A stretch of DNA of 64,000 bases, taken from assembly GCA_945787715.1 (NCBI GenBank), contig CALZJE010000005.1:62001-126000 (forward strand), in the 5' to 3' direction. Positions 18,917-52,463 of this stretch are shown one piece after another. Numbering within the stretch: position 1 is the first letter of the stretch; each line of letters starts with the position of its first letter. The notes beneath the pieces are model-generated. The model was given only the letters and a program-made list of their open reading frames with translations, did no database searches and was not told the origin of the DNA. The translations under genes were made by a program, and so were the position numbers. This DNA is from an uncultured Ectothiorhodospiraceae bacterium. GTDB lineage: Bacteria; Pseudomonadota; Gammaproteobacteria; S012-40.

Positions 18917-20359
18917 ATGCCACAAATTATTAACACAAATATCATGTCTTTAAATTCCCAACGGAATTTAAATCGATCACAAGGAGCGTTACAAACTTCT
19001 TTGCAGCGTTTGTCTTCTGGTTTACGTATTAATAGTGCGAAAGATGATGCGGCAGGTCTTGCGATTTCCGAGCGTTTTACGTCACAGGTTAGAGGATTAA
19101 CGGTAGCCGCAAGAAATGCAAATGATGGGATTTCTTTAGCTCAAGTAGCTGAAGGTGCCTTGCAGGAAGCAAGCAATATTTTACAACGAGTGAGAGAGCT
19201 TGCAGTGCAGTCTATTAACGCGACGAACTCTCCAAGCGATAGAACTGCATTAAATCTTGAAGTTAGCCAGCTAACTGCTGAGCTAGATCGAATTGCACGC
19301 TCTACCGAATTTAACGGTCAAAAGATTCTGGATGGAACATTTGGGACGGCGCTATTTCAAGTTGGATCTAACGCCAATCAAACGATCGTTGCGTCGACTG
19401 GAAACTTTAAAACCAAACAATATGGTGATTACCGTATTCAAGGGTATGACAATAATGTAGCAAATGTTCATCGCCTTGATGCAAATGGCAGCCTAACCGT
19501 TAGTGGTGGTGCTGGTACTGCTTCAATATCTTATGCTACTTCAGATAGTGCAAGTTCGGTTGCGGCTGCAGTGAATCTTGCGAATGAAAATACTGGGGTA
19601 ACAGCTTCGGCATTAACCCAATTTGATGTTAAATTTGCCGCATCAGGTTTTTATAAATTTGATCTATTCTCTGAGAACGCCAGTGCTGTTTCTGTAGGCT
19701 TTAATATATCTGAAGCAACAGGTATAGAAGCATTGTCCGTTGCTGCCTCTGCATTTAATGATATAACATCAAAGACGGGTGTGGTAGCAACTGTTAAGGA
19801 GGATGGTACTGGGATTGAGTTAAGTCACTATACTGGAGAGAATATTACTATTCAAGATACTAGTTTTGCAAACAGTGGTGCGGTGACATTAGCAACATCA
19901 AATTCAACGTTGGTGTTGACTGCAGATACCAATGTAAATACCGCTGTTATATCAGGTCAAGTTACATTTGATGCATCCAAAGCCTTTACCATACAAGGTT
20001 CGGCAACAGAAGTAATGTCTGCCGCTTCAGAAGCTTCAGTACTTCAAAAAGTCGCTGATATTGATATTTCAACAGTTGATAACTCAAATCTGGCTCTGAC
20101 AGTTGCCGATGCTGCATTGGCGCAAATCAGTTCTCAACGTGCAAAATTTGGTGCGCTGCAAAATAGGTTTGGTTCCACTATATCAAACCTTGAAACTGCG
20201 GTTGAAAACCTCAGCGCTGCACGCTCTCGCATAATGGATGCAGATTTTGCGGTTGAAACTGCAGAACTCACACGTACACAGATACTGCAACAAGCAGGTA
20301 CTGCTATGTTAGCTCAAGCAAATCAAATACCTCAAAATGTCTTAAGCTTGCTTCAGTAG
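18917..20359 (+). CDS. fliC: Flagellin 1
   Basis: 480-residue filament subunit with both conserved ends: N-terminal [40 protein letters not shown] and C-terminal [52 protein letters not shown] (the last given in part). The variable centre is rich in Ser, Ala, Thr and Asn, with ample hydroxyl residues for O-glycosylation. Same length as the second flagellin at 24260 and clearly a paralogue, most alike at the ends. The promoter is sigma-54 type; TTAGGAG precedes the ATG. Confidence 0.95.
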
Positions 20360-24259: not shown

Positions 24260-25702
24260 ATGCCTCAAATTATTAATACTAATGTCATGTCGTTGAACTC
24301 TCAACGAAATCTAAACAAGTCTCAAGGTGGTTTAGCTACCGCATTGCAACGTTTATCTTCTGGCCTACGAATTAACAGCGCAAAGGATGATGCTGCAGGC
24401 TTGGCGATTTCTGAAAGATTTACTTCACAAGTTCGTGGTTTAACCGTTGCAGCTCGAAATGCAAATGACGGAATATCTTTGTCACAAGTTGCTGAAGGGG
24501 CATTAACTGAAGTTGGTAATATCTTACAGCGTGTTCGTGAGTTATCAGTACAATCTGCAAATGCAACCAACTCTGCCTCAGATAGATCTGCGTTACAGCT
24601 TGAGGTTGGTCAGTTAACTGCTGAACTTAATCGTATCTCAAAAGCGACTGAGTTTAATGGGCAGAAACTGCTAGATGGAACGTTCGGTACAGCCTTGTTT
24701 CAGGTTGGTGCTAACGCTAATGAAACTATTGTTGCAACAACGGCTAACTTTAAAACTGATCAGTACGGTGATTACCGCGTTTCAGGGCAAGATGACTCAG
24801 TTGCTGGGGCATCGAGAATTGCTAATGCGGGTACGGTTATCGTAAGTGGGTCTGGAGGCACTGCCACAATTGGCTATGCGGCAAGTGATAGCGCAGAGAC
24901 AATTGCGGCGGCTGTTAATCTTAAATTGGATGATACAGGGGTAACAGCGTCTGCGATCACTCAAACTGATGTTAGTTTTGCCGCCTCAGGTACTTATCGT
25001 TTTACAATGACATCGGAGAACTCATCAGCGGTTGAGATAGGTTTTAAAATTGACGCGACTACTGGTACTGATGCTTTGTCTCAAGCAGTAAATGCGTTTA
25101 ATGATGATCAAGCGAAAACGGGTGTGGTTGCAAGTTTAAAAGCTGATGGTTCAGGTATTACACTGACAAATTATGATGGTAAAGATATTAACTTGATGGA
25201 TACTGCTTTTTCCAATGCAGGGATAGCAACGGTATCGGCTGGCGCTGCGACTGTAGCTTTGGCGGCAGATACCAACGTTAATAGTGCACGTGTCACTGGG
25301 CAAGTGACATTCGATTCAGATAAAGCCTTTACAGTTTCCGGTAGCGCTGGCATGGTAGTTTCTGCTGCTGCGGAAGCTTCTACTTTGCAGAAAGTCGCTG
25401 AAGTTGATATTTCGACAGTTTCCGGTGCAAATCTCGCGATGTCAATTGTCGATGCAGCAATTTCGCAAGTGAGTAATCAACGCGCGAAGTTTGGTGCATT
25501 ACAGAGTCGTTTCTCATCAACTATTTCTAATCTGGAAACCAGTGTGGAAAACTTGAGTGCGGCAAGGTCGAGGATTAGAGATGCTGATTTCGCGGTCGAA
25601 ACAGCAGAGCTAACGAGGACGCAAATCTTGCAGCAAGCCGGCACGGCAATGTTAGCACAGGCGAACTCAATTCCACAAAATGTATTAAGTTTGCTCGGCT
25701 AG
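24260..25702 (+). CDS. fliC: Flagellin 2
   Basis: 480-residue filament subunit with complete conserved ends ([40 protein letters not shown]; ending [10 protein letters not shown]). Paralogue of flagellin 1 with the same domain boundaries; differences concentrate in the central Ser/Ala/Thr-rich exposed region. It has its own sigma-28-like promoter and a strong terminator, whereas flagellin 1 looks sigma-54-driven. GTTAGGAG lies before the ATG. The two TPR-glycosyltransferase genes sit between the two flagellins on the other strand. Confidence 0.95.
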
Positions 25703-29338: not shown

Positions 29339-29350
29339 AGTGCTATTCGC
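29321..29350. terminator. Hairpin spanning the convergent stops of fliT and the TPR-sulfotransferase
   Basis: A 12-bp stem with one mismatch (GCGTATAGCACT / AGTGCTATTCGC) and a 6-base loop (GGTTAG) covers both stop codons. There is no T run on the plus strand; on the minus strand a T run follows about 9-10 bases later. It may be a bidirectional transcription end or an RNA 3' stabiliser. Confidence 0.45.
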
Positions 29351-30806
29351 TAAGCATGTTCAGCTCTTGAATGAGATCTTCTAGAAACTCAAGGTAGTTT
29401 TGATGCTTGCTTACAGATGATTTATATATTGGTTGTCGTGTTTGCCATTTACTTGCTGTGCTTATAATATTTTTAGAATGATAGAAGCTTAGATAGTCAT
29501 CAGACCACTCCAATCCGCATTTTAAAATCAATTCTCTCGTTTTCTCTTCCTGATTCAATATCAATTCTTCATATTTTATGTCAATAATTTCATTAGAAAA
29601 CAATTTCTCCCAATGGCTCATTAATCGATGATATTGGGTGTAAAATTGTCCTAGCGTACGAAGATCATATGTGTACTGATGCTGAGTTTCAAAATTTTGA
29701 AAGTAACATGAAAGGCAGGTGGCAATGGGGTCTCTTTGTGTGTGAATTACGATACTGTTGGGAAAAAGTATTTTTATAAACCCTATGTGTAAAAAATTCA
29801 CGGGTGATTTATCAATGATATATTCAGCAAAATTACATTGTGTTTTTGTTAGTGATAATATCTTATTCGATATGTCTTCTAAGACAGAACTATTAGCACT
29901 TGATATACAACTTGGGTAAGAGTCTGGGGCATATAATAAGTCCGAAATATCATCGACTATTTCCCCAATGAACCCAACTTCTCCGGCACTATGAGCTCTT
30001 GGGTGACATGAAATTATTTGTTCAATCAGCGTGCTTCCAGATCTCGGCATACCTACAATAAATATAAATTTTTGTTCTTTTTGTCTCTTTACTTCTAGTT
30101 TTTTTACTAAATCGTCATCAAAAGTATCAATTATTTTGTCAATATAATGGCTATAAGCTTTTATGTTAAAATCATGATTTTTCAGTGAGTTTCCTTGTTT
30201 GTAATTCTCAAATGCGAATTTATAATTCCCTAAATCGTTATATGCCTTTCCCAGTGTAAAGTGAATTTTAATTTTATCTTGTTTTGACATTGATGGAAGG
30301 TTGAATTTTTCTTCAAGTGTTTTGACCAATTGATCATCATCTCTTGAAAAACTATGTGATTGTGCATAGTTAAAGTATGCATCGAAGCAATTTGAATCAA
30401 TATCAATGGCTTTTTTAAAGCACTTATTAGCTTTTTTTATGTCCCCTATGTGTTGGTAGGAGATGCCAAGATTGTTCATCGCGAGTGAAAAATCGGGTTT
30501 TAAGGATATAGCGGCAGTATAATAGTTTATCGCCAGATGGAGTTCTTTCTGCTGTTGATATGCATACCCCAAGTTGTAGTAACTGTTAGGATTGCTTGGC
30601 TCTAGGTTTATAGCATTTGTGAGGAGGGGAATTGCACTATCACTTTTTCCAGAGGTAATATATAAGTAGCTTAACTTAAGAAGTACTTCAATATTGTTTG
30701 GGGATATATCGAGTAATTCTCTGTACAAATCTTCTGCTAGTCGGTAGTCACCACTTTTGTACGCGATATTTGCTTTTTCTATAAAGTCTGGAATTGGAGC
30801 AGTCAC
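29343..30806 (-). CDS. TPR-sulfotransferase (PAPS-dependent)
   Basis: About 487-residue protein: N-terminal TPR units (five or six, through about residue 215) joined to a sulfotransferase domain. The 5'-phosphosulfate loop is seen as FIFIVGMPRSGSTLIEQIIS and the 3'-phosphate motif as IVIHTQRDPIATCLSCYFQ, with IIDKSPVNFLHIG between. Such proteins transfer sulfate from PAPS to protein or glycan hydroxyls. The GTG at 30806 is used because AAGAAGG lies 7-8 bases before it; a longer form from a TTG at 30863 has no ribosome site. Placed directly behind fliD-fliS-fliT and sharing TPR architecture with the glycosyltransferases, it may sulfate flagellin or its glycan (inference). Confidence 0.8.
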   Translation of the reverse strand: MTAPIPDFIEKANIAYKSGDYRLAEDLYRELLDISPNNIEVLLKLSYLYITSGKSDSAIPLLTNAINLEPSNPNSYYNLGYAYQQQKELHLAINYYTAAISLKPDFSLAMNNLGISYQHIGDIKKANKCFKKAIDIDSNCFDAYFNYAQSHSFSRDDDQLVKTLEEKFNLPSMSKQDKIKIHFTLGKAYNDLGNYKFAFENYKQGNSLKNHDFNIKAYSHYIDKIIDTFDDDLVKKLEVKRQKEQKFIFIVGMPRSGSTLIEQIISCHPRAHSAGEVGFIGEIVDDISDLLYAPDSYPSCISSANSSVLEDISNKILSLTKTQCNFAEYIIDKSPVNFLHIGFIKILFPNSIVIHTQRDPIATCLSCYFQNFETQHQYTYDLRTLGQFYTQYHRLMSHWEKLFSNEIIDIKYEELILNQEEKTRELILKCGLEWSDDYLSFYHSKNIISTASKWQTRQPIYKSSVSKHQNYLEFLEDLIQELNMLSE

Positions 30807-30916
30807 ATCCAGGCCTTCTTTGTGAGCATTCTGTATTTCCTTGTATGAATCGTCTATCCCCAATATTTTATATCGACTTAGCGAGGTCCAATCTTAAACA
30901 TATATCAATCAGCATA

Positions 30917-30932
30917 TGGCATCAAACTAGCA
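30917..30932 (+). promoter_or_regulatory. Possible sigma-54 promoter of the FkbM methyltransferase gene
   Basis: TGGCAT-CAAAC-TAGCA keeps the GG-N10-GC doublets and a strong -24 box but has TAGCA in place of TTGCA. It lies 80 bases before the chosen start at 31012. Confidence 0.42.
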
Positions 30933-37637: not shown

Positions 37638-38177
37638 TCACCACCCTAGTTCACGTATATCCGTTTTTATATTTTCCAAGTCAATACCCTCTTGATCGGT
37701 GAGATTCAGCTTTGAGCACATACGATTGAAGTTACTATAAGCGCTAGAAAATTTGCCGAGTAGTCCTTCTAGGAAAAGAATATTTAGCATGTTGAACAGT
37801 GATAAATCTTCTTCCAGTTTGCTGAGCGCTTCACCATAAATTATTTGCAGTTCACTATTACCGTTGAGTTCCCAGCCTAAATTTTTAAAGAGAATAGGTA
37901 GCCATAATAGTTTTAACGGAAAATCATGACTACTACTTGCATGGATAACACGTTTGTAGGTATTCAACCAAACAATAGGAATAATGTTAAAAATGAGATT
38001 GTTTTCCGAGAAAACATGAATTATGTCCTCAGACATAAAGTCATCCATAATTAAATCTATCTCGTCCACGGTATTGGCTTGAGATAGTAGGAGAATCGTA
38101 TAATCAAGAAAGTTTAGTAATTCTTCATTAACGGTTGGAGTAGTTTCCATATCTTGAGTTCTTTCTGCAGTAATCAT
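37638..38177 (-). CDS. Uncharacterised acidic helical protein coupled to a GT8-like gene
   Basis: 179 residues, acidic, rich in Leu, Ile and Asn, predicted mostly helical, with no signal peptide or membrane segment. I do not recognise a family. Its ATG overlaps the stop of the upstream glycosyltransferase (ATGA type, 38174-38177), so it is translated with it and may be a partner or stability factor. The ATG at residue 10 is an alternative start. Confidence 0.6.
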   Translation of the reverse strand: MITAERTQDMETTPTVNEELLNFLDYTILLLSQANTVDEIDLIMDDFMSEDIIHVFSENNLIFNIIPIVWLNTYKRVIHASSSHDFPLKLLWLPILFKNLGWELNGNSELQIIYGEALSKLEEDLSLFNMLNILFLEGLLGKFSSAYSNFNRMCSKLNLTDQEGIDLENIKTDIRELGW

Positions 38178-38851
38178 TTTCTTTGCTCACAATGTTTCAT
38201 GCTACTTAGTTCATCTTGCCACTCTTTGGAATATTCACAATCAGTGTATTCCTTAAAATAGGGGCCCCCAGTTGTGTAATGCACAAGTGAAGCATTCGGG
38301 TTGGGCTTATCGTAGTCCACTAGATGATTCCATTTATGGGGGATTTCACCAATGCTGTCATCTGAATCCAACCACTTAAATTGATGTAGCTCCAAGCCTG
38401 TGGCTGAGTTGATATATTCTGGGGTGAGTGCTTTACACTTAGCATTGTTAAACAGCATGACGCTAGACCAATTTTTCTTTTCATACTTACTTTGAGGTGC
38501 ACCTAAAAATTTTACTTCTTCCTCAGGCACATGATTGTGTTTTACAACCATAACGGCATATCGATCGTCTGCCAATGCAAATAGATTCTTTATGTCCTCC
38601 AGTACAATCATGTCGCAATCCATAAAAACTGACCACCCTTCATAGTTGGATAGATAGGGTGTTAAAAAACGTGTAAACGAAAAGTCAGTGGATTGCAGGT
38701 TATTTTTTTCTCGATGGTAAATGGAATCAAGTTGATTGAGTGATAATGGAGTAATTGATACAGGCTCAGAAGCTCGGCGTTGAATGCTATGCGATAAAAC
38801 ACTATAAGCGATGGATTCTCTTGGGTCGTAGCCAATAAATACTTGTAACAT
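38174..38851 (-). CDS. Glycosyltransferase, GT8-like GT-A fold
   Basis: 225-residue protein opening MLQVFIGYDPRESIAYSVLS, a GT-A Rossmann start, then FSFTRFLTPYLSNYEGWSVF and the metal-binding DxD in MDCDMIVLEDI (about residue 78), FNNAKCKALTPEYI, and HKWNHLVDYDKPNPNASLVH with YTTGGPYF. The pattern fits small GT8/glycosyltransferase-like enzymes using nucleotide-sugars. The start at 38851 has GGAG 6-7 bases upstream. A sigma-54-like site at 38892-38907 lies 41 bases before the start. It is coupled to an unknown small protein and is in the modification island. Confidence 0.75.
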   Translation of the reverse strand: MLQVFIGYDPRESIAYSVLSHSIQRRASEPVSITPLSLNQLDSIYHREKNNLQSTDFSFTRFLTPYLSNYEGWSVFMDCDMIVLEDIKNLFALADDRYAVMVVKHNHVPEEEVKFLGAPQSKYEKKNWSSVMLFNNAKCKALTPEYINSATGLELHQFKWLDSDDSIGEIPHKWNHLVDYDKPNPNASLVHYTTGGPYFKEYTDCEYSKEWQDELSSMKHCEQRK

Positions 38852-38891
38852 TGCTGTCTCCAATCATATTGCGTTTGTTTTTAATACAGAA

Positions 38892-38953: not shown

Positions 38954-40594
38954 TTATTGTAGATTCTGCTGACAAAGTTTTAGAGCTTCTTTCCATTGCC
39001 CGGCCAAGTCTTGCCGGTATAATTTGAATTCCGGGAACCAGGGGCTTGTCTCTCCTTTATATAACCAACGCCACTCAGGTGGGTGAGGAATAAATACAAA
39101 AGCGCTCTTTCTTAGGCTTGCCATGAGATGCATGTTAGTGTTACTGACGCCAATGTAACTATCAACAATTGAAAGCAATGCGAGTGTATTCTCCAATGAG
39201 TCATTGATATAAGAATAATTGAAGACCTTTCGTTTTAGTCCTTTCTCCAACATCTTAATATCTTTAGCATTGGGATTGCGTTGTAGGATGATGATATTTG
39301 CGTTGATATTCGACAGCATATGGCCGAGATCAGCAGGAGAAATGCGCTTGAAGAGTTTATTGTCTCCCTGAACTCCCGCCTGCCATGTGATCGCAATGTT
39401 GGGTAATTTATTGTTCGGTAGATGCAAGCAAACTTCATCTACACGTGATGTCTCAGGTTGTAATGTTATGGGTAACGGTATGTCTGATTGATGTGAAACA
39501 AATCGTGGTAAGTCAGCGATGGGTATCTCTATGTCGAAGTTTTCTTTATCGGGCATAGTTCCGATGAATTGACAGTAGGATATATTTCTTGATAACAGAG
39601 GCTGAAGTTTATCATCACAATAATAGACTATTTCACTCACATGCTTTTGTAGTTCAGGAAGAAATCGCAGAAAAAACAGTTCATCGCCAATGCCCTGATC
39701 CTTAACGAGTAATATGCGCTGCGATTTTTCTATCTCCGTAATATTAGTTCGCGCGGTCTTATTGTTATTGCGAATACTTGGTCGGTATTGATAATAATCC
39801 CAGCCCTGTACATAATTTTCACGACTCAATTCCAGATGCGCAATATTGTGATTAGCTTGGAAAGCCAAGCGTGGAATTTTGCTGGCTTTCTGGAAATATA
39901 TTTTTGCAGACTCTAGGTCTCCTGTGGCTTGTAGAACCAAACCGATGTTAAGGAATGCATCATGAAATTCAGGAATGATCTCTAGCGCTTTATAGAGCAA
40001 ATTAAGCGCGTCTTGATATTCGTGATTGCGATAAAGAGTGTATCCAAAATTGTTTAGAATTTCGGGGTCATTTGGTGATGATTTTATTGCGCTAATGTAG
40101 TATGTTTTAGCTTTATTGGTATATCCTGTAGATTGATAAAGCATTGCGAGATTGTTTAAAGCTTTCACATACTCAGGTTGAAATTTTATTGCAAGTAGAT
40201 AGTGTTCAATTGCATTGTCGATTAGACCGTTACTTTGCAGCATTTGCCCCAAATTATAGTGTGCGCTGGCATAATCGGGTCTCTGTTTTAATGCATTTCT
40301 GTAACATTTTTCTGCTTCGGTATCATTATTCAGTGCTTGATTCACCACCCCAAGGTTATTGTATGCATCTGGATAATTATTTTGATATTTTATTGCATTC
40401 TCAAAATCCTGCTTTGCTTTTTCCAAATTAGAATTCTGAAGATGGATGGTTGCTAATAGAAACCAAGCTTGAGCATTGTCATTCCAATGATCAAGGATTT
40501 CAAGAAGACAGCGGACTGCCAGATCAAGTTTCCCTTGTTGGAAGAGATCTATCGCTGACTGCATATTGGGTTTTTTTACCTTTTTATTAGCCAT
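38954..40594 (-). CDS. TPR-glycosyltransferase array, copy 6
   Basis: 546 residues: seven or so TPR units to about residue 265, then the heptosyltransferase-like domain with VKDQGIGDELFFLRFLPELQ (about 297), IAITWQAGVQGDNKLFKRIS (about 405) and YIGVSNTNMHLMASLRKSAF ahead of HPPEWRWLYKGETSPWFPEF and YRQ. The SNTNMHL signature is shared by all six genes of this array. It overlaps the previous gene by 8 bases and ends the leftward operon. Expected in the cytoplasm, where the TPR domain could bind flagellin; the sugar donor is unknown. The signature GK of its relatives is RK here. Confidence 0.75.
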   Translation of the reverse strand: MANKKVKKPNMQSAIDLFQQGKLDLAVRCLLEILDHWNDNAQAWFLLATIHLQNSNLEKAKQDFENAIKYQNNYPDAYNNLGVVNQALNNDTEAEKCYRNALKQRPDYASAHYNLGQMLQSNGLIDNAIEHYLLAIKFQPEYVKALNNLAMLYQSTGYTNKAKTYYISAIKSSPNDPEILNNFGYTLYRNHEYQDALNLLYKALEIIPEFHDAFLNIGLVLQATGDLESAKIYFQKASKIPRLAFQANHNIAHLELSRENYVQGWDYYQYRPSIRNNNKTARTNITEIEKSQRILLVKDQGIGDELFFLRFLPELQKHVSEIVYYCDDKLQPLLSRNISYCQFIGTMPDKENFDIEIPIADLPRFVSHQSDIPLPITLQPETSRVDEVCLHLPNNKLPNIAITWQAGVQGDNKLFKRISPADLGHMLSNINANIIILQRNPNAKDIKMLEKGLKRKVFNYSYINDSLENTLALLSIVDSYIGVSNTNMHLMASLRKSAFVFIPHPPEWRWLYKGETSPWFPEFKLYRQDLAGQWKEALKLCQQNLQ

Positions 40595-42455
40595 ATGTTT
40601 TTTGGAGATCTTCCTTCAGCTCAATTAACGCAGCTTTCCAGTTATCGTCATGAGTTTGGCGAAAAATTCTAAATTCTGGAAACCAGGGTGACTCATTTTC
40701 AAACATCCAACGCCACTCGGGTGGATGAGGTACAAGTACGTGGGCAGATTTCCCTACTGCAGAACGTAAGTGCATATTGGTATTGCTTACTCCAATATAA
40801 CTATCCACTATTGATAATAAAGCTAGCATCTTGGGTAAATCATCATTAAGCGCGGTTAAATCAAATATTTTTCTGTCTTCTGAAAGTGTTTCAAGTTCAG
40901 ACATTTCTTCATTTGTTGGTTTTCTCTGGATATTAATTAACGTGCCGGGTAACTCATATAGAACGCTCCATAAGTCTTTAAGTGAAATATTCTTATGAAG
41001 GAAGTTTTCTATTTTTTGTCCCCCTTGCCAAGTAAACACGAAATAAGGCGGTGGTCCAAAGCCCTTCAGTATCTCATATATATACCCTAAATCATCTTGT
41101 GATGCTGATAGTGGAATTGTTTCTGGTATATTTTTGTTATCAGTAACAAGTAGACTAGGAAGATCTCCTATTGATAAACAATAGTCATATTGATTGGAGA
41201 TATTTGAAACATCCCCTGTGTAAACATTATCGATGTATGGAAGTGGATCAACAAAAACTGAAATTTTCTGAGATGTTTGAATATCGATTTTTTGGGTAAA
41301 TCCAGCCAGTTGACGAGCAAAGCGTAAGAAAAATAGTTCATCCCCGATACCTTGCTCAGACAATAATAGAATAGATTTATCTTTTAATGAATCGATTGAT
41401 AGGCGCTGGGGATTCATAGCAAGGTTACTTCTAATCGTAGGCCTCGCATAGTAGTTTTTCCAGCCTTCTACAAAATCACCACTAGCTAATGAATAAGTCG
41501 AAAAATTATACCTTGCTTCAAGAGAATCTGGATTTGAATCTATTGCTTTTTTGAAGTACCTTGAAGCTTTGCTGTATTCTTTTTTATTATAGAGTAATAA
41601 TCCGTAATTATTATTTGCTTCTTCATAATCTGGATTTAGGAATAGCGCTCTTTGGTAATAGTGCTCGGCACGACTGAAGTTAGATTGAGTCTTGAAGACA
41701 TTAGCCAAATTTGTCAAAGCCTCAGTGTATTCTTCATCGAGAGTGAGGGCTAATTTGAAATGTTCGATTGCTTTTTCATTCTCACCGAGCGAATGAAATG
41801 CTATCGCTATATTATTATGTATCTGTGGTTTATCTAGTGAGTTTGAAAGTCCATTTTGATAATGCTGAATAGCTTGGTGATAGCCACCTATACAGTAATA
41901 ACAATATCCCAGGTTGTTGTAGACATCCGAATCCCTGGGCGAGATATTAATCGCTTGTTGGTAGTAGTTAATTGCCTCATTATAGTGTTGTTGACTCTGG
42001 TAAATTAATGCAAGATTGTTTAAGGCTTTAACGTGGTGAGGGTCTTGGTCTAAAGCTCTTTTGTATAGCTCAATGGCCTTGATGTTGTCTTTTGTATTCT
42101 GCTTAATATTGCCTAGATTAAAAAGTGCACTGGCATATAATGGGTTCTGATCAATGGCTTTTTTATAAGCCGTTGCTGAATTTTCAAGTTTGTTTAACGC
42201 TTCATAGGCAACCCCTAGGTTGTTGTATGCGTCAGGATAAATGGGCTGTAGTTTTATTGAATTTTTGTATTCTGTGACTGCCTTTTCAAATTGTCCTTTT
42301 TGTAGATGAATTGTTGCTAACAGAAACCAGGTCAATGGGATATTTTTTTGATATTTTACTATTGTATTTAGTTCCTTCTCTGATGAATCGATATCTCCTT
42401 GTTGAAAATATTGAATGGCATTCTGTATTCGTTGCATTTCCTTTTCAGTTGCCAT
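40587..42455 (-). CDS. TPR-glycosyltransferase array, copy 5
   Basis: 622 residues with about ten TPR units (residues 10-330; the repeated YNNLG and ALNNLA helices are clear) and a C-terminal glycosyltransferase-like domain: LLSEQGIGDELFFLRFARQL (about 365), FVFTWQGGQKIENFLHKNIS, and YIGVSNTNMHLRSAVGKSAH with PPEWRWMFENESPWFPEFRI (neighbouring pieces given separately). It starts inside the end of the preceding gene (11-base overlap) and ends inside the next (8 bases), so translation is coupled throughout. Role as flagellin glycosyltransferase is inferred from domain design and location. Confidence 0.75.
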   Translation of the reverse strand: MATEKEMQRIQNAIQYFQQGDIDSSEKELNTIVKYQKNIPLTWFLLATIHLQKGQFEKAVTEYKNSIKLQPIYPDAYNNLGVAYEALNKLENSATAYKKAIDQNPLYASALFNLGNIKQNTKDNIKAIELYKRALDQDPHHVKALNNLALIYQSQQHYNEAINYYQQAINISPRDSDVYNNLGYCYYCIGGYHQAIQHYQNGLSNSLDKPQIHNNIAIAFHSLGENEKAIEHFKLALTLDEEYTEALTNLANVFKTQSNFSRAEHYYQRALFLNPDYEEANNNYGLLLYNKKEYSKASRYFKKAIDSNPDSLEARYNFSTYSLASGDFVEGWKNYYARPTIRSNLAMNPQRLSIDSLKDKSILLLSEQGIGDELFFLRFARQLAGFTQKIDIQTSQKISVFVDPLPYIDNVYTGDVSNISNQYDYCLSIGDLPSLLVTDNKNIPETIPLSASQDDLGYIYEILKGFGPPPYFVFTWQGGQKIENFLHKNISLKDLWSVLYELPGTLINIQRKPTNEEMSELETLSEDRKIFDLTALNDDLPKMLALLSIVDSYIGVSNTNMHLRSAVGKSAHVLVPHPPEWRWMFENESPWFPEFRIFRQTHDDNWKAALIELKEDLQKTYG

Positions 42456-44544
42456 ATTTTAATTCCAGCGATTGTTTAAGCTGTGAAGCTGCCATGCTCC
42501 AATCACCATTTGCTAACTGACGATATATAGAAAAACCAGGAAGCCAGGGTGAGTTCTCACCGGATACCAACCAACGCCAATCAGCAGGGTGAGGCACTAA
42601 TACTCTTGCGGTCTTACCAATCGACGCATATAAATGCATATTGGTATTACTAACACCAACATAATCATCGATGAGTGAGAGAAGGGAGTGCATCTCGCGC
42701 AGATTTTCATTGTAGTGGGATAAATCAACTACCGGATTATTTAAGTTGTGTTTTATATAATCCAGATGTTCTTGCTTAGGGTTACGTTGTAGAATTACTA
42801 CAGTAATATTTAATGTATTGAGTATATTGACCAGTTCTTCGATCCGGAAACTTTTAGCTAATTTTCGCGTTGTTGATTTCCTGCTTTGCAGCTCTTCTGG
42901 CGTTCCCGCTTCCCAGGTGATACCAATTACGGGTGATTTAATTCCGCTAAAATGCTTATTCCTTAAATTACTTTGTGTTTGAATATCAATTGGAATTTGT
43001 AATGGAGAGGTGATTTTCTCTATCGAGTTGATATCCAAGATCAGCGGTAGATCATCAATGGTAAAATAGTAATCAGCTTTTGGTAAGGGAGAATTTTCAT
43101 CGAGTAGATGGTCGATATCTCGATTATATTGCAACAATGGGTATATTTTGTTTGATGCACGATAACTAATGACAACATTTTCTTGCTTGAGCAATTTCAA
43201 GAATCGTAGAAATAGTAGTTCATCTCCAATCCCTTGACTTTTCGTTAAGTAAATGTGGCTATTAGATAATTTCATTCCGGGAGTGATTAGAGATAGTTGT
43301 TCCTCTCCAATAGTTCGCTCTCTCTTGAAATAGTGTCGCCAACCAGATTGAAAATTACCAAGCGAAAGTTCGGTTAATCCAAGATTGCTCTCTGCATCCG
43401 CATAGTTTGGATCAATTTCAAGGCATTTTCGCAAGTAATTACATGAACTTTCATAGTTACCGCGCTTTCTTGCGTTGTATGAAAGATTGAAGTAGGGAAG
43501 TTTGTTAAAAGGATCTAATGAAATCGCTTTAAAATAGCAATTATCAGATGCTTCGTATTCTTCATTGTAGGATTTGAGTCTTCCCATGTTGATATTACTT
43601 GCGATGTGATTTGAATCGAAATTTAACGCAATTTGCAGATGTTTTTCGGCTAAGCTGCTCTGATCTAGGTTTGTATAAATATTTCCCAGAATGCTATGTG
43701 CTTCAACATCATTTTCATTGATTGCGAGGACTTGATTTAAATAATCGATTGCTTCATCCGTGGACTCTACTGCATCGTATGCCATGGCCAGATGAGTCAT
43801 GATATTTATATTGTCAGGTGTGTGGGTAAGTAGCTCGCTGTAAATATCAATAGCTAGGTAGGCATAATGGTTGGCCAGCAAATGGTTAGCTAAAGAAAAT
43901 AATACACTGGTATTTTTAGCCTTTTTATTCCTCAACGGCTCAAGCAGTTCAGTAATGGCGGTGAGATCACGGTTGTTGATAAAAGCGGTTAGTAATCCTA
44001 AATTTGCTTTTGTGGAACTAGCGTTACAAGAAATTATTGTTTGATAACTTTTAATTGCCGACGAAAAGTCCTCAATTTTAAGATAACAATCTCCAAGTAT
44101 CGTGAGTGCAATTTCATGGTTATGATGTTTTTCAATAAACCTAGATAATAGAGGAATGGCGTTGAAGAACTGCTTGTTGTTGTAATACAATAATCCTAGA
44201 TTATATTCTGCCGATGTGTAACCAGGTTTTATTTCAAGTGCCTTGTTGAGGTAGTGCTCGGCCTGATCATACTCTCCGAGTTCAACAAAGATAGATCCCG
44301 CTAAATTGTTTAGTTCTTCATCAAAGTGTGAGAGCTGCTCAAGCGTTTTTATATATTCAGCGGCCCTACGATATTCTTTTTGATGAGTAAGAATTGTGGC
44401 AAGGAGCTTAATGGTGTCTGGCTGATTTGGCGTTTTTTGTAATTGTTTATTGGCATATTGAATTGAAATGTCTAGATGACCAATTCTAAACTCAGATACA
44501 GCTTGATGGAAATATTCTAGCGACATTATTCTATCAAGCACCAT
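42445..44544 (-). CDS. TPR-glycosyltransferase array, copy 4
   Basis: 699 residues, the longest of the array. TPR units run to about residue 410, then YLTKSQGIGDELLFLRFLKL (about 430), GITWEAGTPEELQSRKSTTR and DYVGVSNTNMHLYASIGKTA with HPADWRWLVSGENSPWLPGF. The second-domain pattern is the same as its neighbours. Its start codon shares a base with the stop of the upstream gene (TAATG at 44544), a tight coupling; the in-frame ATG at residue 7 is a second option. Closest in motif wording to copy 2 (YRASNKIYPLL versus YRPSPKIYDLL), which suggests these two are sister copies. Confidence 0.75.
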   Translation of the reverse strand: MVLDRIMSLEYFHQAVSEFRIGHLDISIQYANKQLQKTPNQPDTIKLLATILTHQKEYRRAAEYIKTLEQLSHFDEELNNLAGSIFVELGEYDQAEHYLNKALEIKPGYTSAEYNLGLLYYNNKQFFNAIPLLSRFIEKHHNHEIALTILGDCYLKIEDFSSAIKSYQTIISCNASSTKANLGLLTAFINNRDLTAITELLEPLRNKKAKNTSVLFSLANHLLANHYAYLAIDIYSELLTHTPDNINIMTHLAMAYDAVESTDEAIDYLNQVLAINENDVEAHSILGNIYTNLDQSSLAEKHLQIALNFDSNHIASNINMGRLKSYNEEYEASDNCYFKAISLDPFNKLPYFNLSYNARKRGNYESSCNYLRKCLEIDPNYADAESNLGLTELSLGNFQSGWRHYFKRERTIGEEQLSLITPGMKLSNSHIYLTKSQGIGDELLFLRFLKLLKQENVVISYRASNKIYPLLQYNRDIDHLLDENSPLPKADYYFTIDDLPLILDINSIEKITSPLQIPIDIQTQSNLRNKHFSGIKSPVIGITWEAGTPEELQSRKSTTRKLAKSFRIEELVNILNTLNITVVILQRNPKQEHLDYIKHNLNNPVVDLSHYNENLREMHSLLSLIDDYVGVSNTNMHLYASIGKTARVLVPHPADWRWLVSGENSPWLPGFSIYRQLANGDWSMAASQLKQSLELKYGN

Positions 44545-46526
44545 TAACTCGGAGATAAATCTTCAAGGAGTTCATGAATTGCATCGTCCCAGTTTCGATT
44601 TTTAGATTGGCGATAGATGGTACATTTTGAAAACCAGTGGCTGTGTTTTCCATTTTCCATCCATCGCCATTCAGAGGGATACGGAACAAGGACGTGAGAT
44701 TGTTTACCCAAGCCGGCTCTTAGATGGATGTTTGTATTACTCACTGCGATATAACGATCAAGTAAATTCAAAATGCATAACATTCTTTCAAGATCATTGT
44801 TATATTCGTCTACATTCAGTATTGGACGATTCAATGTTTTAGACATTGCATCTAATTCGCCTGATGTAGGATTTCTTTGCAAGCTTACTAAGGTGCCTTC
44901 TGTATTCGCAAGGATGCTCTGCATATTATTGAGATCAAAAACTTTGAAATATGACCCAATATTTTTGTTATTTAATAAACCTCCAGCTTGCCAACTAAAG
45001 CCGATATAGGGTGGTGGGCCGAACTCTGACAAACGCGTAGTTATTTCATTGAGTAATGTCGGGTGACAGGTTAGAGGAAACGGAGGAGGGCTATCGTGCT
45101 CTGACTGATGATGACAAATATAGGGTAAATCGCCGACGGAGAGCGAGTAATTATATCCTGATTTATCAAGCTTACCAAAGCTAAGTTTCTCAAAATAGTT
45201 TGAGCGTGAAAGAAGGGATAGAAGTTTATGGCAGCAATGGTAGGAAACAGCTGCACCGCGTTTGGATAACTCTGGAAGAAAACGAAGAAAAAATAGCTCA
45301 TCGCCAATACCTTGGTCTTTAATCAATAATATTGATTTTCCTGTAAGATCTTGAGGTAATGACTCTGGGCACAGGTCTGCTTCATTTTCAAATACTGATT
45401 GCCGAAAGCGATAATAATTCCAGGCATCGCCATAATCACCTAATAGCAACTTTGTTAGTGCAAGGTTAGTCGAGGCACTTTTGCTGTCAGGTCGAATGTT
45501 AATTGCCTTTTGAAAATATTCGAGGGCTGCGTTCGGGGCGCCTTCCTTTCCGATTAGATTGCCATAGTTGTTTAATGCTTCCACAAAATCCGGTTTATAT
45601 TCGATTGCTTGCAAATAGGATTGTTTTGCTGCTTCTATATTACCCAGTTCATGCAGCACAAGACCTCTGGTGTTGTATGCATCCGCAAATTCTTGCTGCA
45701 TCTCTATAGCACTGTTAAGTTGTTTCAAAGATTCTTCATACTCCCCACTAATGTGAAGAGCAGCGCCAATTGCATTTTTAACATCAGGCTGATTATTATC
45801 CAAACTCAATGAATGCTTGAGGTACTTTAAAGCTTCTGTTGCGTGTTTATTATTGTTGAATATTGAAATTCCAAGTAGGTAATTAGCGCGGATGTGGTCG
45901 GGGTTTAAAACGATTATTCTACGTAGTAAGTCTTCTGAAGCTCCGTATTCACGATTGTCGTACTTTAAACTAGCAAGACCAAGAAGCGATTCAATATAAT
46001 TTGGCTCTATAAGCAGGACTTGATTATAGAGCTCGATTGATTGATCTATCTCGTCTTGCTTTCGAAAAACATCGGCCAGGTTGTTCAGTGCTCGTATATG
46101 CCGAGGATTTAGTTTTACGGTTTTTTCGTACCATGCCTTAGCATCAGCATAATCTTCTTTGCGATAACAAATATTGCCTAAATTATAGAGTGCTTCTGTA
46201 TAGTTAGGATCGAACGAAATGGCTTGATTGAGATAATTAACTGCAGCTTCAAGTTCTTCAAGATCAATATAAGTTGTTGCGAGATTTGTACAGAGTTCCG
46301 GACTTTCTGGTGTGATTTTTAACGCGGTGAGAAAGAACTTAGTGGCTTGCTTTTTCTTCCCCAACTTGTCGTAAATAATGCCTGACAGGTTAAGCGCATT
46401 AACTTCTTTAGCGTTGTTTTTAAGAATTGTTTTACAGATGCCAAGCGCAGCTTGGTAATCTGAAGAATAAAACTTTTGAGCGGCGGATTCTATTAGTCCC
46501 AGTTGCTGTTTGTGTTTTTTAGCCAT
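44544..46526 (-). CDS. TPR-glycosyltransferase array, copy 3
   Basis: 660 residues. About eleven TPR units to residue 380, then LIKDQGIGDELFFLRFLPEL (about 400), YIGFSWQAGGLLNNKNIGSY and RYIAVSNTNIHLRAGLGKQS with PSEWRWMENGKHSHWFSKCT. First gene of a four-gene overlapping operon: a 160-base gap separates it from copy 2, and that gap holds a sigma-54-like promoter (46609-46624). The SPWFP motif of the other copies reads SHWFS here. Flagellin glycosyltransferase role is inferred. Confidence 0.75.
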   Translation of the reverse strand: MAKKHKQQLGLIESAAQKFYSSDYQAALGICKTILKNNAKEVNALNLSGIIYDKLGKKKQATKFFLTALKITPESPELCTNLATTYIDLEELEAAVNYLNQAISFDPNYTEALYNLGNICYRKEDYADAKAWYEKTVKLNPRHIRALNNLADVFRKQDEIDQSIELYNQVLLIEPNYIESLLGLASLKYDNREYGASEDLLRRIIVLNPDHIRANYLLGISIFNNNKHATEALKYLKHSLSLDNNQPDVKNAIGAALHISGEYEESLKQLNSAIEMQQEFADAYNTRGLVLHELGNIEAAKQSYLQAIEYKPDFVEALNNYGNLIGKEGAPNAALEYFQKAINIRPDSKSASTNLALTKLLLGDYGDAWNYYRFRQSVFENEADLCPESLPQDLTGKSILLIKDQGIGDELFFLRFLPELSKRGAAVSYHCCHKLLSLLSRSNYFEKLSFGKLDKSGYNYSLSVGDLPYICHHQSEHDSPPPFPLTCHPTLLNEITTRLSEFGPPPYIGFSWQAGGLLNNKNIGSYFKVFDLNNMQSILANTEGTLVSLQRNPTSGELDAMSKTLNRPILNVDEYNNDLERMLCILNLLDRYIAVSNTNIHLRAGLGKQSHVLVPYPSEWRWMENGKHSHWFSKCTIYRQSKNRNWDDAIHELLEDLSPS

Positions 46527-46608
46527 GGTGTCAGGAAATTCTCTAAACTATCAATGCATTGATTTATTAGCGGGTAAATAAAATCACGTTGGTCCGAACA
46601 GACTGAGG

Positions 46609-46624
46609 AGCATGATATATGCCA
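46609..46624 (-). promoter_or_regulatory. Candidate sigma-54 promoter of the four-gene TPR operon
   Basis: Minus-strand TGGCAT-ATATC-ATGCT has a full -24 core and GG-N10-GC spacing, with ATGC instead of TTGC. It lies in the only sizeable gap of the six-gene array, about 83 bases before the start at 46526. Confidence 0.52.
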
Positions 46625-46686
46625 GTAGAAGTGAGAGTCGGATTATCTTACTGCCGGCAAAGAGTATTATTTTTAATCAGAACAAT

Positions 46687-48774
46687 TTAGCATGAGAGTT
46701 CATTTTGCAGTCGAGAAAGGGCCTTACCCCAATCTCCATTTTTACATTGTCGATAAATAGTGAAGTTAGGCATCCATGGGGAATAGTTACCGTCTGCCAT
46801 CCATCGCCATTCTGGGGGTGATGGTATTAAAACTCTGCCACTCTTACTTTGTGATGCCAGAAGATGGACGTTGGTATTGCTGACTCCTATATAATCATCG
46901 AGTAGCTTGAGCAAAGCTTGCATTTCCAGTAGTGAATTGTTGAGTTCAGACATATCAATTACGGGTTGTTGTAATGTTTGTTGGAGCATTTCAATTTCGC
47001 CGGGTTGTGGATTTCTCTGCAGTATTATAATTGTGCCTTTGGTCGACTGTGCGATGTTTATTAATGCGTCAAGTGGAATATGTTTTGATAAAAGTCGTTG
47101 ATTATTTCTTGAATGATGTTCCATTGACTCTGCTCCCGCACGCCAAGCAATGCCGATATAGGGTCTGGGAAAATCTTTCATAATTTGAGAATATTTTTCA
47201 GAAATTGTTGGATCTGGCATTAAACGAATTGGTGGGGGAAGATTGCTCACATCAACTATGTTTAAAAGTAGAGCAATATCATCAATAGAAAAATAGTAGT
47301 CAGATTGAGGTAATTCGCTGTCCTTAGAGAGAAGTTGATCAATCTCGGGCGTATTGATTAATAAATCATAAATTTTTGGTGAGGGTCGATAGGATATATG
47401 AACATTGTGGTGTTGTGTTTTTATTAGAGTAAAGAATCTGATAAAGAAAATCTCGTCGCCAATGCCCTGGCTGCTAATAAAGCAGATACGTTTGTTTTCC
47501 AGTGATATGCCTGGTGTAATTGGTGATAAGATTTCATTTTCTTTGAGGTGGCGAATGCGTTTGAAATAGTGTCCCCAGCCATGTTTTAAATCACCAAGTA
47601 CTAGCTCATTGATTCCTAGGTTAAACTCCGCATCTGCATAGTTAGGATCAACTGAAAGGCATTGTTTGTAGTAATTAATTGATAGTTCATGTTCACCTTG
47701 CGCATGATAAATATTACCAATATTGTAACTGATTAGCGGGTTCCCTAGGGTTTCATTCTGCTCAGCGATTTTATAATACTGAAGTGCTTGTTCGTAATTA
47801 TTTTTACGTTCCATTAATCGACCATAATTGATATTTATATTTACGTTCTTAGGTGCAATCGTTAATGCTTTGTCGAGGTATTTTTTTGCATCCTTAAGTC
47901 GATTTGATTCAGTAAGAATTTTGCCAATATTGTTCAAGGCGGTAGTGTAATTAGGATCTTTGTTGAGTGCATTTTCAAAGTAGTTAATCGCTTGTTTAGA
48001 TTTCCCCAGGTTATCCAATGCTGAGCCCATGTTGCTCAACAGAAGAGGAGTTTCGCCATATTTCTCCATTATGTTGCTGTAAAGATCAAAGGCTTCTTGG
48101 TTGAAACCAGCTTGCATAAGGTTAGTAATAATGTCGAATTGGGTGTTGTATGTATTTTGATTTAGATGTTGTAATTGATCGATAACTTCCCGAACTTTGA
48201 ATGGCTCTTGTTTAAATATAAGACATTGACTATAGTCGAAGTAGAATTCTAATCTATTAGGATCATTTTTCAATAATAGAAGATAGTATTGTATGGCTTC
48301 TTGAATGTTTCCCGTTTGTTTTTCAATATCAGCAAGATTAATCAAGGCATTTATATGAGTTGGATTCAATGATAAAACATGTGTTAAAGCCAATCGAGCG
48401 TTATCCAGAACACCAAGCTGAGCATAAGATGCACCTAAAAAGAAATGGGCATCTAACAGGTCTTCCTTTGATTCTACACAATACTCGAAGTAGGGGATTG
48501 CTTGTTTATACTCCTTTAAATCAAACAAGCAGCAGCCCAAAAAGTAGTTAACTTCTAGATCATCCAGTTTCTGTGCAGTAAATCTAAAAAAATATTCTAC
48601 CGCTGCTGAAAGATTTCCCAGCTGAAGTTCTGAATATCCTAAGAGTTTTAGCAGTTGCAAATCTTGGGGGGAGACATTTATTAATTGAACTAATATTTTT
48701 TTAGCAGAGGCTGGTTGATTACGATCCAAATGGTTAATGGCCGTTTGGACTGAGTTGATAGCGCTATCAAACAT
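46687..48774 (-). CDS. TPR-glycosyltransferase array, copy 2
   Basis: 695 residues. TPR units to about 400, then FISSQGIGDEIFFIRFFTLI (about 425), YIGIAWRAGAESMEHHSRNN and DYIGVSNTNVHLLASQSKSG with PPEWRWMADGNYSPWMPNFT. Overlaps the upstream copy by 8 bases. It has LASQSKSG where most relatives have a GK pair. Inferred flagellin-modifying enzyme; its closest sister by motif wording is copy 4. Confidence 0.75.
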   Translation of the reverse strand: MFDSAINSVQTAINHLDRNQPASAKKILVQLINVSPQDLQLLKLLGYSELQLGNLSAAVEYFFRFTAQKLDDLEVNYFLGCCLFDLKEYKQAIPYFEYCVESKEDLLDAHFFLGASYAQLGVLDNARLALTHVLSLNPTHINALINLADIEKQTGNIQEAIQYYLLLLKNDPNRLEFYFDYSQCLIFKQEPFKVREVIDQLQHLNQNTYNTQFDIITNLMQAGFNQEAFDLYSNIMEKYGETPLLLSNMGSALDNLGKSKQAINYFENALNKDPNYTTALNNIGKILTESNRLKDAKKYLDKALTIAPKNVNININYGRLMERKNNYEQALQYYKIAEQNETLGNPLISYNIGNIYHAQGEHELSINYYKQCLSVDPNYADAEFNLGINELVLGDLKHGWGHYFKRIRHLKENEILSPITPGISLENKRICFISSQGIGDEIFFIRFFTLIKTQHHNVHISYRPSPKIYDLLINTPEIDQLLSKDSELPQSDYYFSIDDIALLLNIVDVSNLPPPIRLMPDPTISEKYSQIMKDFPRPYIGIAWRAGAESMEHHSRNNQRLLSKHIPLDALINIAQSTKGTIIILQRNPQPGEIEMLQQTLQQPVIDMSELNNSLLEMQALLKLLDDYIGVSNTNVHLLASQSKSGRVLIPSPPEWRWMADGNYSPWMPNFTIYRQCKNGDWGKALSRLQNELSC

Positions 48775-50419
48775 TTTTCAAATTGTTCAAATAGTGCTTG
48801 GATTCTTCGATAACACTTTCCCAATTATCATTTTTATTTTGCCGAATAATATCAAAATCAGGATACCATGGAGAAGAGCTCTCGTCATACATCCATCGCC
48901 ATTCGCCTGGATATGGAGTTATTACACAGCCCCTTTTGCCTAACGATCCGTATAAATGCATATTGGTATTGCTAACACCAATATAAGCATCCAAAAAAGT
49001 TAATGTATTTAGCATGACTGGAAGATTATCATTCAAGTCGGATGCATTAATGAATTTGATGTGGCTCAGAGAATCAATCAGCTCTTGAAATTCTGAAATC
49101 TTCAGATCCCTTTGAAGTATGACAATAGTGCCGTGAAAGTGAGAGAGAATTTCTTTGATAACATAAAGCGGGATCTCCTTATTCAAAAATTTCTCTGCTG
49201 AACTGGATTTATCAAGTAATCCAGCTTTCCAGCTCAATCCAACTATTGCTTCATTTGCCTTTTTTTGATCGCTCCAGTTTCCCTCCTTTTTTTCTGAATA
49301 GCCGATTTTAATCGGTGGCGGAAGAGCGTCTGTATTGTCAATTTCAAATATAATAGGTAAATCCATTAACGAGAATTCTATATTATAATCATTTGTATCA
49401 CATTCTCCGATTAATACCTTATCTATCGATGGAATAGTAGAAAGTAAATCTGCAAGTTTTGGCGACGTTAAATAGGAAATATGATTATTTTGCTCTTTTA
49501 ACTGAGGAATGAAGCGGAGAAACATGAGTTCGTCACCAAGACCTTCTTCTCCTTTGATAAGAATGTTTTTGTTTTTCAATTCTGATCGACAGGGTAGAGA
49601 GGAACTACATTGGGGCCGATGCCTTAAATGGGCCCAGCCATTTTTGAAGTCCCCATAGCCGAGTTCTATCAATGCAAGATTGTAATAGACGCGTTGTAAA
49701 TAATTTTCACGGCAAGCATCATTAAAATTTTCAATTATCTCTAGATAGTGTCGTTTTGCATCGGGTAACAATCCTTGATCCTGCAAAAAAGACGCGAAGT
49801 TGAGTTTTGCATGAAAATGATTCGGATCGAGGTTTAATGCTTGTGAAAATGAATGTTTTGCTTCGGTTACTGCTCCTAAATTTGATTCGATTAATCCTGT
49901 AAGATTCCAAACGTCTGGATTGTGAGGGATAATGTGTTGTAGTATTAATACTGAATCTTTTGCGCGAGAATAGTCTCTTAAGCGCATTAATAGATGGACC
50001 AACTTAAATAACCCATCAATGTTTCCCGGTGATTGATTTAAGAAAGATTCTAGCGTGGAAGCGGCTTTTTCTGCGTACCCAGATTGTTCAAGCAAGCGGC
50101 AAGCTTCAAATAGTAAGTTGCGTTGCTCTGGATTTGATTTGTAGGCAATTTCAAAATAGTGGATGGCTTGTTCATATTGTTTTAACTGCTCGTAACTGCT
50201 TGCTAACGCAACAAGCGCGTCAATGTTATTAGGGGCTAGCTCAATGGTTCTATGAAAATATGTAATTGCTTTATCGAACCCCTTTTTTTCATAATGAATA
50301 ACCCCCATTAAATGATAAGCAGAGCTATTTTTCGGCTCTTTCTTTAATAATTTTTTGCATAACATTTCTGCACTCTTATAATTTTTTTGTTGATAAAGTG
50401 CGGCTGCTTGCTGAATCAT
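48767..50419 (-). CDS. TPR-glycosyltransferase array, copy 1
   Basis: 550 residues. TPR units fill about residues 1-265, then IKGEEGLGDELMFLRFIPQL (about 288; LGDE replaces IGDE), IVGLSWKAGLLDKSSSAEKF and AYIGVSNTNMHLYGSLGKRG with PGEWRWMYDESSSPWYPDFD and IIRQ. First gene of the array, divergent from fleQ across a 559-base spacer. No good ribosome site precedes the ATG, and a sigma-54-like site at 50664-50679 lies about 245 bases upstream. Confidence 0.75.
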   Translation of the reverse strand: MIQQAAALYQQKNYKSAEMLCKKLLKKEPKNSSAYHLMGVIHYEKKGFDKAITYFHRTIELAPNNIDALVALASSYEQLKQYEQAIHYFEIAYKSNPEQRNLLFEACRLLEQSGYAEKAASTLESFLNQSPGNIDGLFKLVHLLMRLRDYSRAKDSVLILQHIIPHNPDVWNLTGLIESNLGAVTEAKHSFSQALNLDPNHFHAKLNFASFLQDQGLLPDAKRHYLEIIENFNDACRENYLQRVYYNLALIELGYGDFKNGWAHLRHRPQCSSSLPCRSELKNKNILIKGEEGLGDELMFLRFIPQLKEQNNHISYLTSPKLADLLSTIPSIDKVLIGECDTNDYNIEFSLMDLPIIFEIDNTDALPPPIKIGYSEKKEGNWSDQKKANEAIVGLSWKAGLLDKSSSAEKFLNKEIPLYVIKEILSHFHGTIVILQRDLKISEFQELIDSLSHIKFINASDLNDNLPVMLNTLTFLDAYIGVSNTNMHLYGSLGKRGCVITPYPGEWRWMYDESSSPWYPDFDIIRQNKNDNWESVIEESKHYLNNLKNV

Positions 50420-50663: not shown

Positions 50664-50679
50664 AGCAGAATATATGCCG
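50664..50679 (-). promoter_or_regulatory. Possible sigma-54 promoter of TPR array copies 1-2
   Basis: Minus-strand CGGCAT-ATATT-CTGCT has GG-N10-GC spacing and resembles the site before copy 3, with mismatches at the first base of each box. It would give a leader of about 235 bases, which is long; weak support. Confidence 0.33.
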
Positions 50680-50978: not shown

Positions 50979-52463
50979 ATGTCTAATCCATCCACAGTAC
51001 TTATTATTGAAGAAGACAGCCAAAAACGTCAGATTTATAAAAGTATTTTAGAGTTTGTTGAGCAAGAAGGACGTATAACCGATTGTCGACATTGGAAAGA
51101 AACACTGACTCAATCTAATACTATCAGTGCAATTATATTAGGTGATTGTGGTAATGATGAAACTGTACGTAAGGTTTTTGATGGCGTTACTGAAATCGAT
51201 CCTAACTTACCGATAATTCGTCTTGTCGAGAAATCCAAAAAGATTCCAAAAGATCAATCCGAAACAGAAGCCTTTATTCAAGCAGAATGTTTCAATCATA
51301 TCGACCTTCCTTTGAAATATACGCAATTAACAGATGTGCTTCATCAGGCAACAGTGTTTCGCATGAGTAAAGAGACGCCCAGAGATAGCCGCTCCACCGA
51401 ATTATTTAGAAGTTTAGTGGGTAATAGTCGGAGTGTTCGTGCTGTTCGAGAAATGATGGCACAAGTTGCCGATTCTGAAGCGACAGTACTTATTTTAGGT
51501 GAGTCGGGAACGGGTAAAGAAGTTGTTGCTCGTAATTTGCACTATAATTCCAGTCGAAGAAATAAACCTTTCGTACCTGTAAACTGTGGCGCAATCCCTA
51601 GTGACTTGTTGGAAAGTGAGCTTTTTGGACATGAAAAAGGCGCGTTTACTGGTGCCATCAGTGCTCGCCAAGGCCGTTTTGAGTTAGCGCAAGGTGGCAC
51701 ATTATTTCTTGATGAAATCGGTGACATGAGTCTGCATATGCAGGTTAAGCTACTTCGTGTTTTGCAGGAGCGCACATTCGAACGCGTTGGTAGTAACAAG
51801 ACAATTAAGGCGGATGTGAGGATTGTTGCTGCGACACATCGAAACCTTGAAGAGCATATTAGTAAAGGCAGTTTTCGTGAGGATTTGTTCTATCGTTTAA
51901 ATGTATTCCCAATCGAAATGCCACCATTGTATGAGCGTCTTGATGATATTCCATTACTTGTTAACGAATTAATTGCGCGTATGGAAGCTGAGAAGCGTGG
52001 TTCTGTACGGCTAACTCCATCCGCTGTCATGGCGCTTTGTCAATATCGATGGCCAGGGAATGTGCGTGAGTTAGCAAACCTTATTGAACGTCTTGTGATT
52101 ATGTATCCTTATGGTGTTGTCGATATTTCAGACCTACCTGAAAAATTTCGCCCCAAAGGTAAAATAGTGATTGCAGATGAAATCGCAGAAGAGAGTGCGC
52201 ATTCAGCGTCCGTGGTGGAAAATATTGCCTCTCAGCAATTGTTTGATAAACAGCCATTATCCACGCCCAGATTACCCAGTGAAGGTTTGGATTTGAAAGA
52301 GCACTTGAGTAATTTAGAGATTGATTTAATTAAACAAGCGTTGAGTGATGCTGAAGGTGTCGTTGCTCATGCCGCAAAAAGGCTAAAAATGCGCAGGACA
52401 ACGTTGGTTGAAAAACTGCGTAAATATGGACTACAACGCCAAGGTGAGTCGTCAATGGTTTGA
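50979..52463 (+). CDS. fleQ: FleQ, sigma-54-dependent flagellar master regulator
   Basis: 494-residue enhancer-binding protein. A FleQ-type receiver-like N-terminal domain (residues 1-125) is followed by an AAA+ domain with Walker A GESGTGKE (174-181), the sigma-54 contact loop GAFTGA in FGHEKGAFTGAISARQGRFE, Walker B GGTLFLDEIGDM, and a C-terminal HTH (LIKQALSDAEGVVAHAAKRL, MRRTTLVEKLRKYGL). In Pseudomonas FleQ activates flagellar genes with sigma-54 and responds to cyclic di-GMP and FleN. AAAGGGAG precedes the ATG. fleS and fleR follow. Confidence 0.94.
   Translation: MSNPSTVLIIEEDSQKRQIYKSILEFVEQEGRITDCRHWKETLTQSNTISAIILGDCGNDETVRKVFDGVTEIDPNLPIIRLVEKSKKIPKDQSETEAFIQAECFNHIDLPLKYTQLTDVLHQATVFRMSKETPRDSRSTELFRSLVGNSRSVRAVREMMAQVADSEATVLILGESGTGKEVVARNLHYNSSRRNKPFVPVNCGAIPSDLLESELFGHEKGAFTGAISARQGRFELAQGGTLFLDEIGDMSLHMQVKLLRVLQERTFERVGSNKTIKADVRIVAATHRNLEEHISKGSFREDLFYRLNVFPIEMPPLYERLDDIPLLVNELIARMEAEKRGSVRLTPSAVMALCQYRWPGNVRELANLIERLVIMYPYGVVDISDLPEKFRPKGKIVIADEIAEESAHSASVVENIASQQLFDKQPLSTPRLPSEGLDLKEHLSNLEIDLIKQALSDAEGVVAHAAKRLKMRRTTLVEKLRKYGLQRQGESSMV

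Follow-up and report, generated by a model that had tools for sequence, protein, structure and literature searches.

The closest described counterpart of the genes analyzed here is FlmG of Caulobacter crescentus, a TPR-glycosyltransferase (TPR-GT) of 596 residues whose TPR domain is a flagellin-binding module essential for flagellin modification, and which requires pseudaminic acid supplied via NeuB (PMC7591256). In the literature searched, with subscription papers outside its scope, FlmG was the sole characterised TPR flagellin glycosyltransferase found, and no array of such genes was described. Other known systems share parts of this design. Family GT9 contains WaaC, WaaF and TibC, the last being a protein heptosyltransferase in which Asp-110 is a candidate catalytic base (PMC4358343). 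OGT and SPINDLY (family GT41) have the plan of a TPR domain with a GT-B domain. Maf proteins glycosylate flagellin in the cytoplasm ahead of export (PMC4065374), as the proteins considered below may also do.

The locus lies in a window of 64,000 nucleotides, the whole stretch of DNA that was analyzed, from an uncultured Ectothiorhodospiraceae bacterium. An earlier note, made from the sequence alone, had described a tandem array of six minus-strand TPR-GT paralogues. All six open reading frames were found where it placed them, with the lengths it gave and no internal stops. They are numbered T1 to T6 in the order of transcription:

48767..50419, minus strand: T1, TPR-GT of 550 aa that opens the array; clade A of the tree described below, without clear orthologue
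46687..48774, minus strand: T2, TPR-GT of 695 aa; pairs with T4 and the second gene of relative G003
44544..46526, minus strand: T3, TPR-GT of 660 aa; its orthologue is the first G003 gene
42445..44544, minus strand: T4, TPR-GT of 699 aa; pairs with T2 and the second G003 gene
40587..42455, minus strand: T5, TPR-GT of 622 aa; its TPR half is 44% identical to that of T6
38954..40594, minus strand: T6, TPR-GT of 546 aa; its orthologue is the third G003 gene

The overlaps of 1–11 bases proposed for the junctions were measured as 8 nt (T1/T2), 1 nt (T3/T4), 11 nt (T4/T5) and 8 nt (T5/T6), and the single gap, of 160 nt, separates T2 from T3. TPRs score far above the Pfam cut-offs in all six proteins. 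The C-terminal domains are 33–47% identical in pairwise comparisons, which is far beyond chance, and the TPR halves 20–29%, with T5/T6 as the exception. The motifs G(I/L)GDE, SNTN(M/I/V)HL and P.(E/D)WRW are present in every copy as claimed, but the YRQ ending that had been ascribed to all is restricted to T2, T3, T4 and T6; T1 reads IRQ and T5 reads FRQ at this place. Recent duplication of the array is ruled out by the level of identity between C-terminal domains together with orthologues in another genus, an assembly artefact by shorter syntenic arrays in relatives, and pseudogenes by the intact reading frames and retained conserved residues.

The count of six, correct for the array, turned out to be an undercount for the genome. 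The same catalytic domain is encoded by two genes on other contigs (C74 and C65) and by two more genes in the window, which thus holds eight TPR-GTs. The latter two lie between flagellin genes:

22090..24063, minus strand: T7, TPR-GT lying between flagellins; in the tree, on the FlmG side
20424..22103, minus strand: T8, TPR-GT lying between flagellins; in the tree, on the FlmG side
18917..20359, plus strand: flagellin, candidate acceptor, identified from its translation and a flagellin match at that genome position
24260..25702, plus strand: flagellin, candidate acceptor, with PF00669 and PF00700

T7 probably starts later than listed, at an in-frame ATG at 23904 that follows a sigma-54-like site at 23984-23969. 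A third flagellin of this genome is encoded on another contig.

Searches of the GT domain against Pfam, NCBIfam, PHROGs and PDB sequences returned TPR matches, sub-threshold GT9 matches and one PHROG of unknown function. With Pfam GT9 (PF01075), the scores were 18.4 bits for T8 and 11.2 bits for T4 (cut-off 22), and the other GT domains gave no match. The GT41 catalytic domain (PF13844) was not matched by the GT domains of T1–T8; GT41 proteins are encoded by separate genes in this genome and its relatives. Because sequence searches gave so little, folds were compared. An AlphaFold2 model of the T6 GT domain, built from 117 aligned sequences, had a mean pLDDT of 94.1 and a pTM of 0.92. It is a predicted GT-B domain, and a Foldseek search of the PDB placed GT9 enzymes first (3tov, E 1.9e-8, TM 0.61; WaaC; the autotransporter heptosyltransferase TibC). 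The model of full-length T6 (pLDDT 93.6, pTM 0.89) contains fourteen TPR-type helices, equivalent to about seven TPRs, ahead of the GT-B domain; its PDB fold matches were SPY, OGT and other TPR proteins, the likeness to GT41 enzymes being aided by the TPRs. The term heptosyltransferase-like used in the earlier note is therefore apt at the level of fold but not of profile, Pfam GT9 staying below its cut-off in every copy. The conserved Asp in the first loop is a further likeness to GT9, whereas identity in the fold alignment is only about 12% and the array proteins carry an additional TPR domain.

The phylogeny of the C-terminal domains was also determined. A maximum-likelihood tree of catalytic domains separates clades A and B with support of 100/100. 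Clade A comprises T1–T6 and their relatives; clade B comprises T7, T8, the two other copies of this genome and presumed FlmG orthologues. The latter are Caulobacterales copies presumed to be orthologous because their size and flagellin neighborhood match those of FlmG, and the set was assembled without CCNA_01524 itself. Most domain-bearing Caulobacterales genomes among those searched have one copy, and the copies of about 600 aa adjoin flagellin clusters in 9 of the 14 stretches read. Since the presumed FlmG orthologues group with T7 and T8, these two are, by this tree, FlmG-side members of the family, and the array T1–T6 is a sister subfamily. In the GxGD motif, the Asp (D304 in T6) is conserved in 100% of the clade-A and FlmG-set sequences. 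In contrast, the clade-A residues R310, K416, R439, N487 and H489 differ in the FlmG set, where R439 and H489 are replaced by Tyr and Asn/Gln, respectively.

The analogy to FlmG drawn earlier thus holds for the design (an N-terminal TPR domain, a C-terminal GT-B domain, a homologous catalytic domain) and for the link to flagellin, but the six-fold array stands outside the presumed FlmG clade, in a genome without NeuB. No NeuB (PF03102) was found in this genome, which is 100% complete, while control genomes were positive. Nor was it found in the TPR-GT-bearing relatives G001, G003, G005, G010, G013 and G034, all drafts, of which G001 and G010 are incomplete. All three flagellated family members without a TPR-GT of this type (G002, G007 and G009) gave strong NeuB matches, and two genomes (G004 and G008) have both. 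Within the family, the inverse association of NeuB and TPR-GT is regarded as a trend (Fisher p = 0.045, without correction for relatedness). Maf (PF01973) is missing from this genome and, among the relatives searched, was found only in G007. Since neither NeuB nor Maf is present in a 100%-complete genome, a nonulosonic acid is unlikely as donor, and the array, judged by gene content, probably uses another sugar; the lack of NeuB also means that the donor chemistry of FlmG is not simply transferable to it. The genome has a likely HldD gene and separate GT9 enzymes beside LPS-type genes. Given these and the GT9 fold, ADP-heptose would be a possible donor by analogy.

The surroundings of the array are conserved in the bacterial family. 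The following genes of the window are relevant:

50979..52463, plus strand: sigma-54 activator of FleQ/FlrA type, oriented divergently to the array; landmark of the conserved slot
38174..38863, minus strand: GT8-like gene directly after the array, with a weak PF01501 match; position kept in relatives
37638..38177, minus strand: 179-aa gene adjoining the GT8-like gene; family unassigned
29343..30863, minus strand: TPR-sulfotransferase, with TPRs and a PF13469 (Sulfotransfer_3) match of E 2.2e-41

The order in this slot is a divergent fleQ, a variable number of TPR-GTs and the GT8-like gene. Six TPR-GTs are found here, three in G003 and two each in G004, G008 and G010; the fleQ orthologues at the slot in these four relatives are 76–81% identical. 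The 179-aa gene follows in three of the four. It is retained beside the GT8-like gene in several relatives, and its product has no match in Pfam, NCBIfam or PHROG. In G003 the slot continues with fliS, fliD and flagellin. Flagellin genes enclose TPR-GTs in the window and in G001, G004 and G008; in G012 a TPR-GT adjoins one flagellin.

Trees, as well as BLAST scores of both the TPR and the GT domains, pair T3, T2/T4 and T6 with the first, second and third G003 genes, respectively; T1 and T5 have no clear G003 partner. Because T2/T4, T3 and T6 are matched by orthologues from a different genus, the array, as judged from sequence relationships, is an old and maintained expansion that predates the split of these genera and has kept at least three types. 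The suggestion that the copies represent several distinct enzymes rather than one is upheld by their being old paralogues, ortholog-specific in both domains and with conserved residues retained.

Genes between 31000 and 38863 form a glycan island that encodes an FkbM methyltransferase (sigma-54-like site at 30917), a CmcI-type O-methyltransferase, a radical SAM/SPASM protein and further methyltransferases and GTs. Subsets of these genes reappear near distant TPR-GTs (L048, L069, L080, L089 and L090). The TPR-sulfotransferase is possibly a further modifier of flagellin guided by a TPR domain; proteins related to its catalytic half are encoded near flagellar genes in G001, G004, G012 and G002. 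G002, which has no GT9-like TPR-GTs, encodes TPR-GT41 (OGT-type) proteins beside flagellins (L169, 3149-7183 and 14247-16148), one of these frames being 1345 aa long with a weak C-terminal sulfotransferase match.

On balance we favor, with somewhat better than even confidence, the view that T1–T6, together with T7 and T8, are cytoplasmic, TPR-guided, nonulosonate-independent glycosyltransferases, specialised paralogues that act on flagellin or some other filament protein. Enzyme activity, acceptor, donor and division of labor are what we infer for these proteins, as follows. T1–T8 would modify their acceptor in the cytoplasm ahead of export; the TPR superhelix would grip it, and the GT-B domain of GT9 fold would move a sugar other than a nonulosonic acid from a nucleotide donor. 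Elongation or decoration of the glycan may fall to the nearby GT8-like and GT4-like enzymes, methyltransferases and TPR-sulfotransferase. The array members would most likely split the labor by site or step, because the old expansion keeps distinct pairs of TPR and GT domains.

The same genes could instead form one assembly line, in which paralogues successively build a single flagellin oligosaccharide; most of them would add sugar onto sugar, and only one or two, for example T7/T8, would attach the first sugar to the protein. The adjacent GT8-like and GT4-like genes, the two clades with their different active-site residues and the placement of FlmG-side members between flagellins are consistent with this arrangement. 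However, each member retains a long TPR domain, which is not obviously needed for sugar-to-sugar steps, and two or three slot copies suffice in other genera. We regard this alternative as possible but doubtful.

Specialised transferases for flagellin also have to be weighed against a different acceptor. Among 37 genomes, flagellin was found in 11 of the 12 with the domain and in 12 of the 25 without it (one-sided Fisher p = 0.011, relatedness uncorrected). In G032, a TPR-GT is present and flagellin was not found. At distant TPR-GT loci, a flagellin gene was present in 7 of 79, which exceeds the approximately 1% expected from position alone by our own rough estimate. Since flagellin is far from universal at these loci, the wider family is not exclusively flagellar, and other members may serve other acceptors. 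TPR-GT genes also occur in a Chlamydiales MAG (L096, L103 and L105), the L103 copy beside a GT8-like gene.

Promoter-like sites were searched as well. The sigma-54-like promoter proposed for the gap between T2 and T3 is there: TGGCATATATCATGCT, at 46624-46609 on the minus strand, matches 10 of 11 consensus positions and lies 83 nt upstream of T3. The window contains 11 sites with at least 10/11 consensus positions, compared to a mean of 3.0 and a maximum of 8 in 40 dinucleotide shuffles of the window. Judged from the table of open reading frames, ten of the 11 are upstream of a gene in the correct orientation, and the genes behind them include T3, T7, a flagellin and fliD. Upstream of T1 there is a weaker site, which alone is not significant:

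50664..50679, minus strand: sigma-54-like site CGGCATATATTCTGCT, 9/11 consensus positions

Sites with 8–10 of 11 positions precede the first slot TPR-GT in G003, G004, G005, G008 and G010, which is no more than suggestive, such sites being not rare at this lower threshold. A sigma-54 scan allowing 3 mismatches was at chance level, while the stricter core was above chance; scans for sigma-70 promoters and terminators were at chance level.

The flagellar context claimed for the array was thus found in the conserved slot beside fleQ, the flagellin neighbors and the sigma-54-like sites. It bears on the alternative that the acceptor is LPS, capsule or another surface protein and that proximity to flagellar genes is a matter of position only. 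GT9 enzymes build the LPS core, flagellin is missing near the majority of distant TPR-GT loci, and G032 carries the domain with no flagellin found. On the other hand, separate GT9 enzymes stand beside LPS-type genes in this genome, the flagellar slot is retained across genera, and sigma-54-like sites are common to the array and flagellar genes, so that a non-flagellar acceptor appears unlikely. That the paralogues are mostly redundant, one or two of them active and the rest a reservoir for antigenic variation or escape from phages, is very improbable even though slot copy number ranges from 2 to 6, since all six are intact with conserved residues, orthologues of at least three types occur in a different genus for both domains, and divergence is too high for recent amplification.

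Returning to specialised TPR-guided transferases, a more far-reaching version of this reading can be put forward tentatively. In it, the locus would write a nonulosonate-independent flagellin code, with the TPR domain as a reusable adaptor on interchangeable GT9-like, GT41 or sulfotransferase domains and each of the eight TPR-GTs having its own site or sugar. FlmG set the precedent of a TPR domain that directs a sugar transferase to flagellin, in a system of a single enzyme and a single donor. The locus described here offers eight enzymes of this kind, from two clades, as a natural set in a genome that lacks the pathway to the FlmG donor, and it makes the acceptor and sugar specificity of cytoplasmic protein O-glycosylation testable by domain swaps in a laboratory strain.
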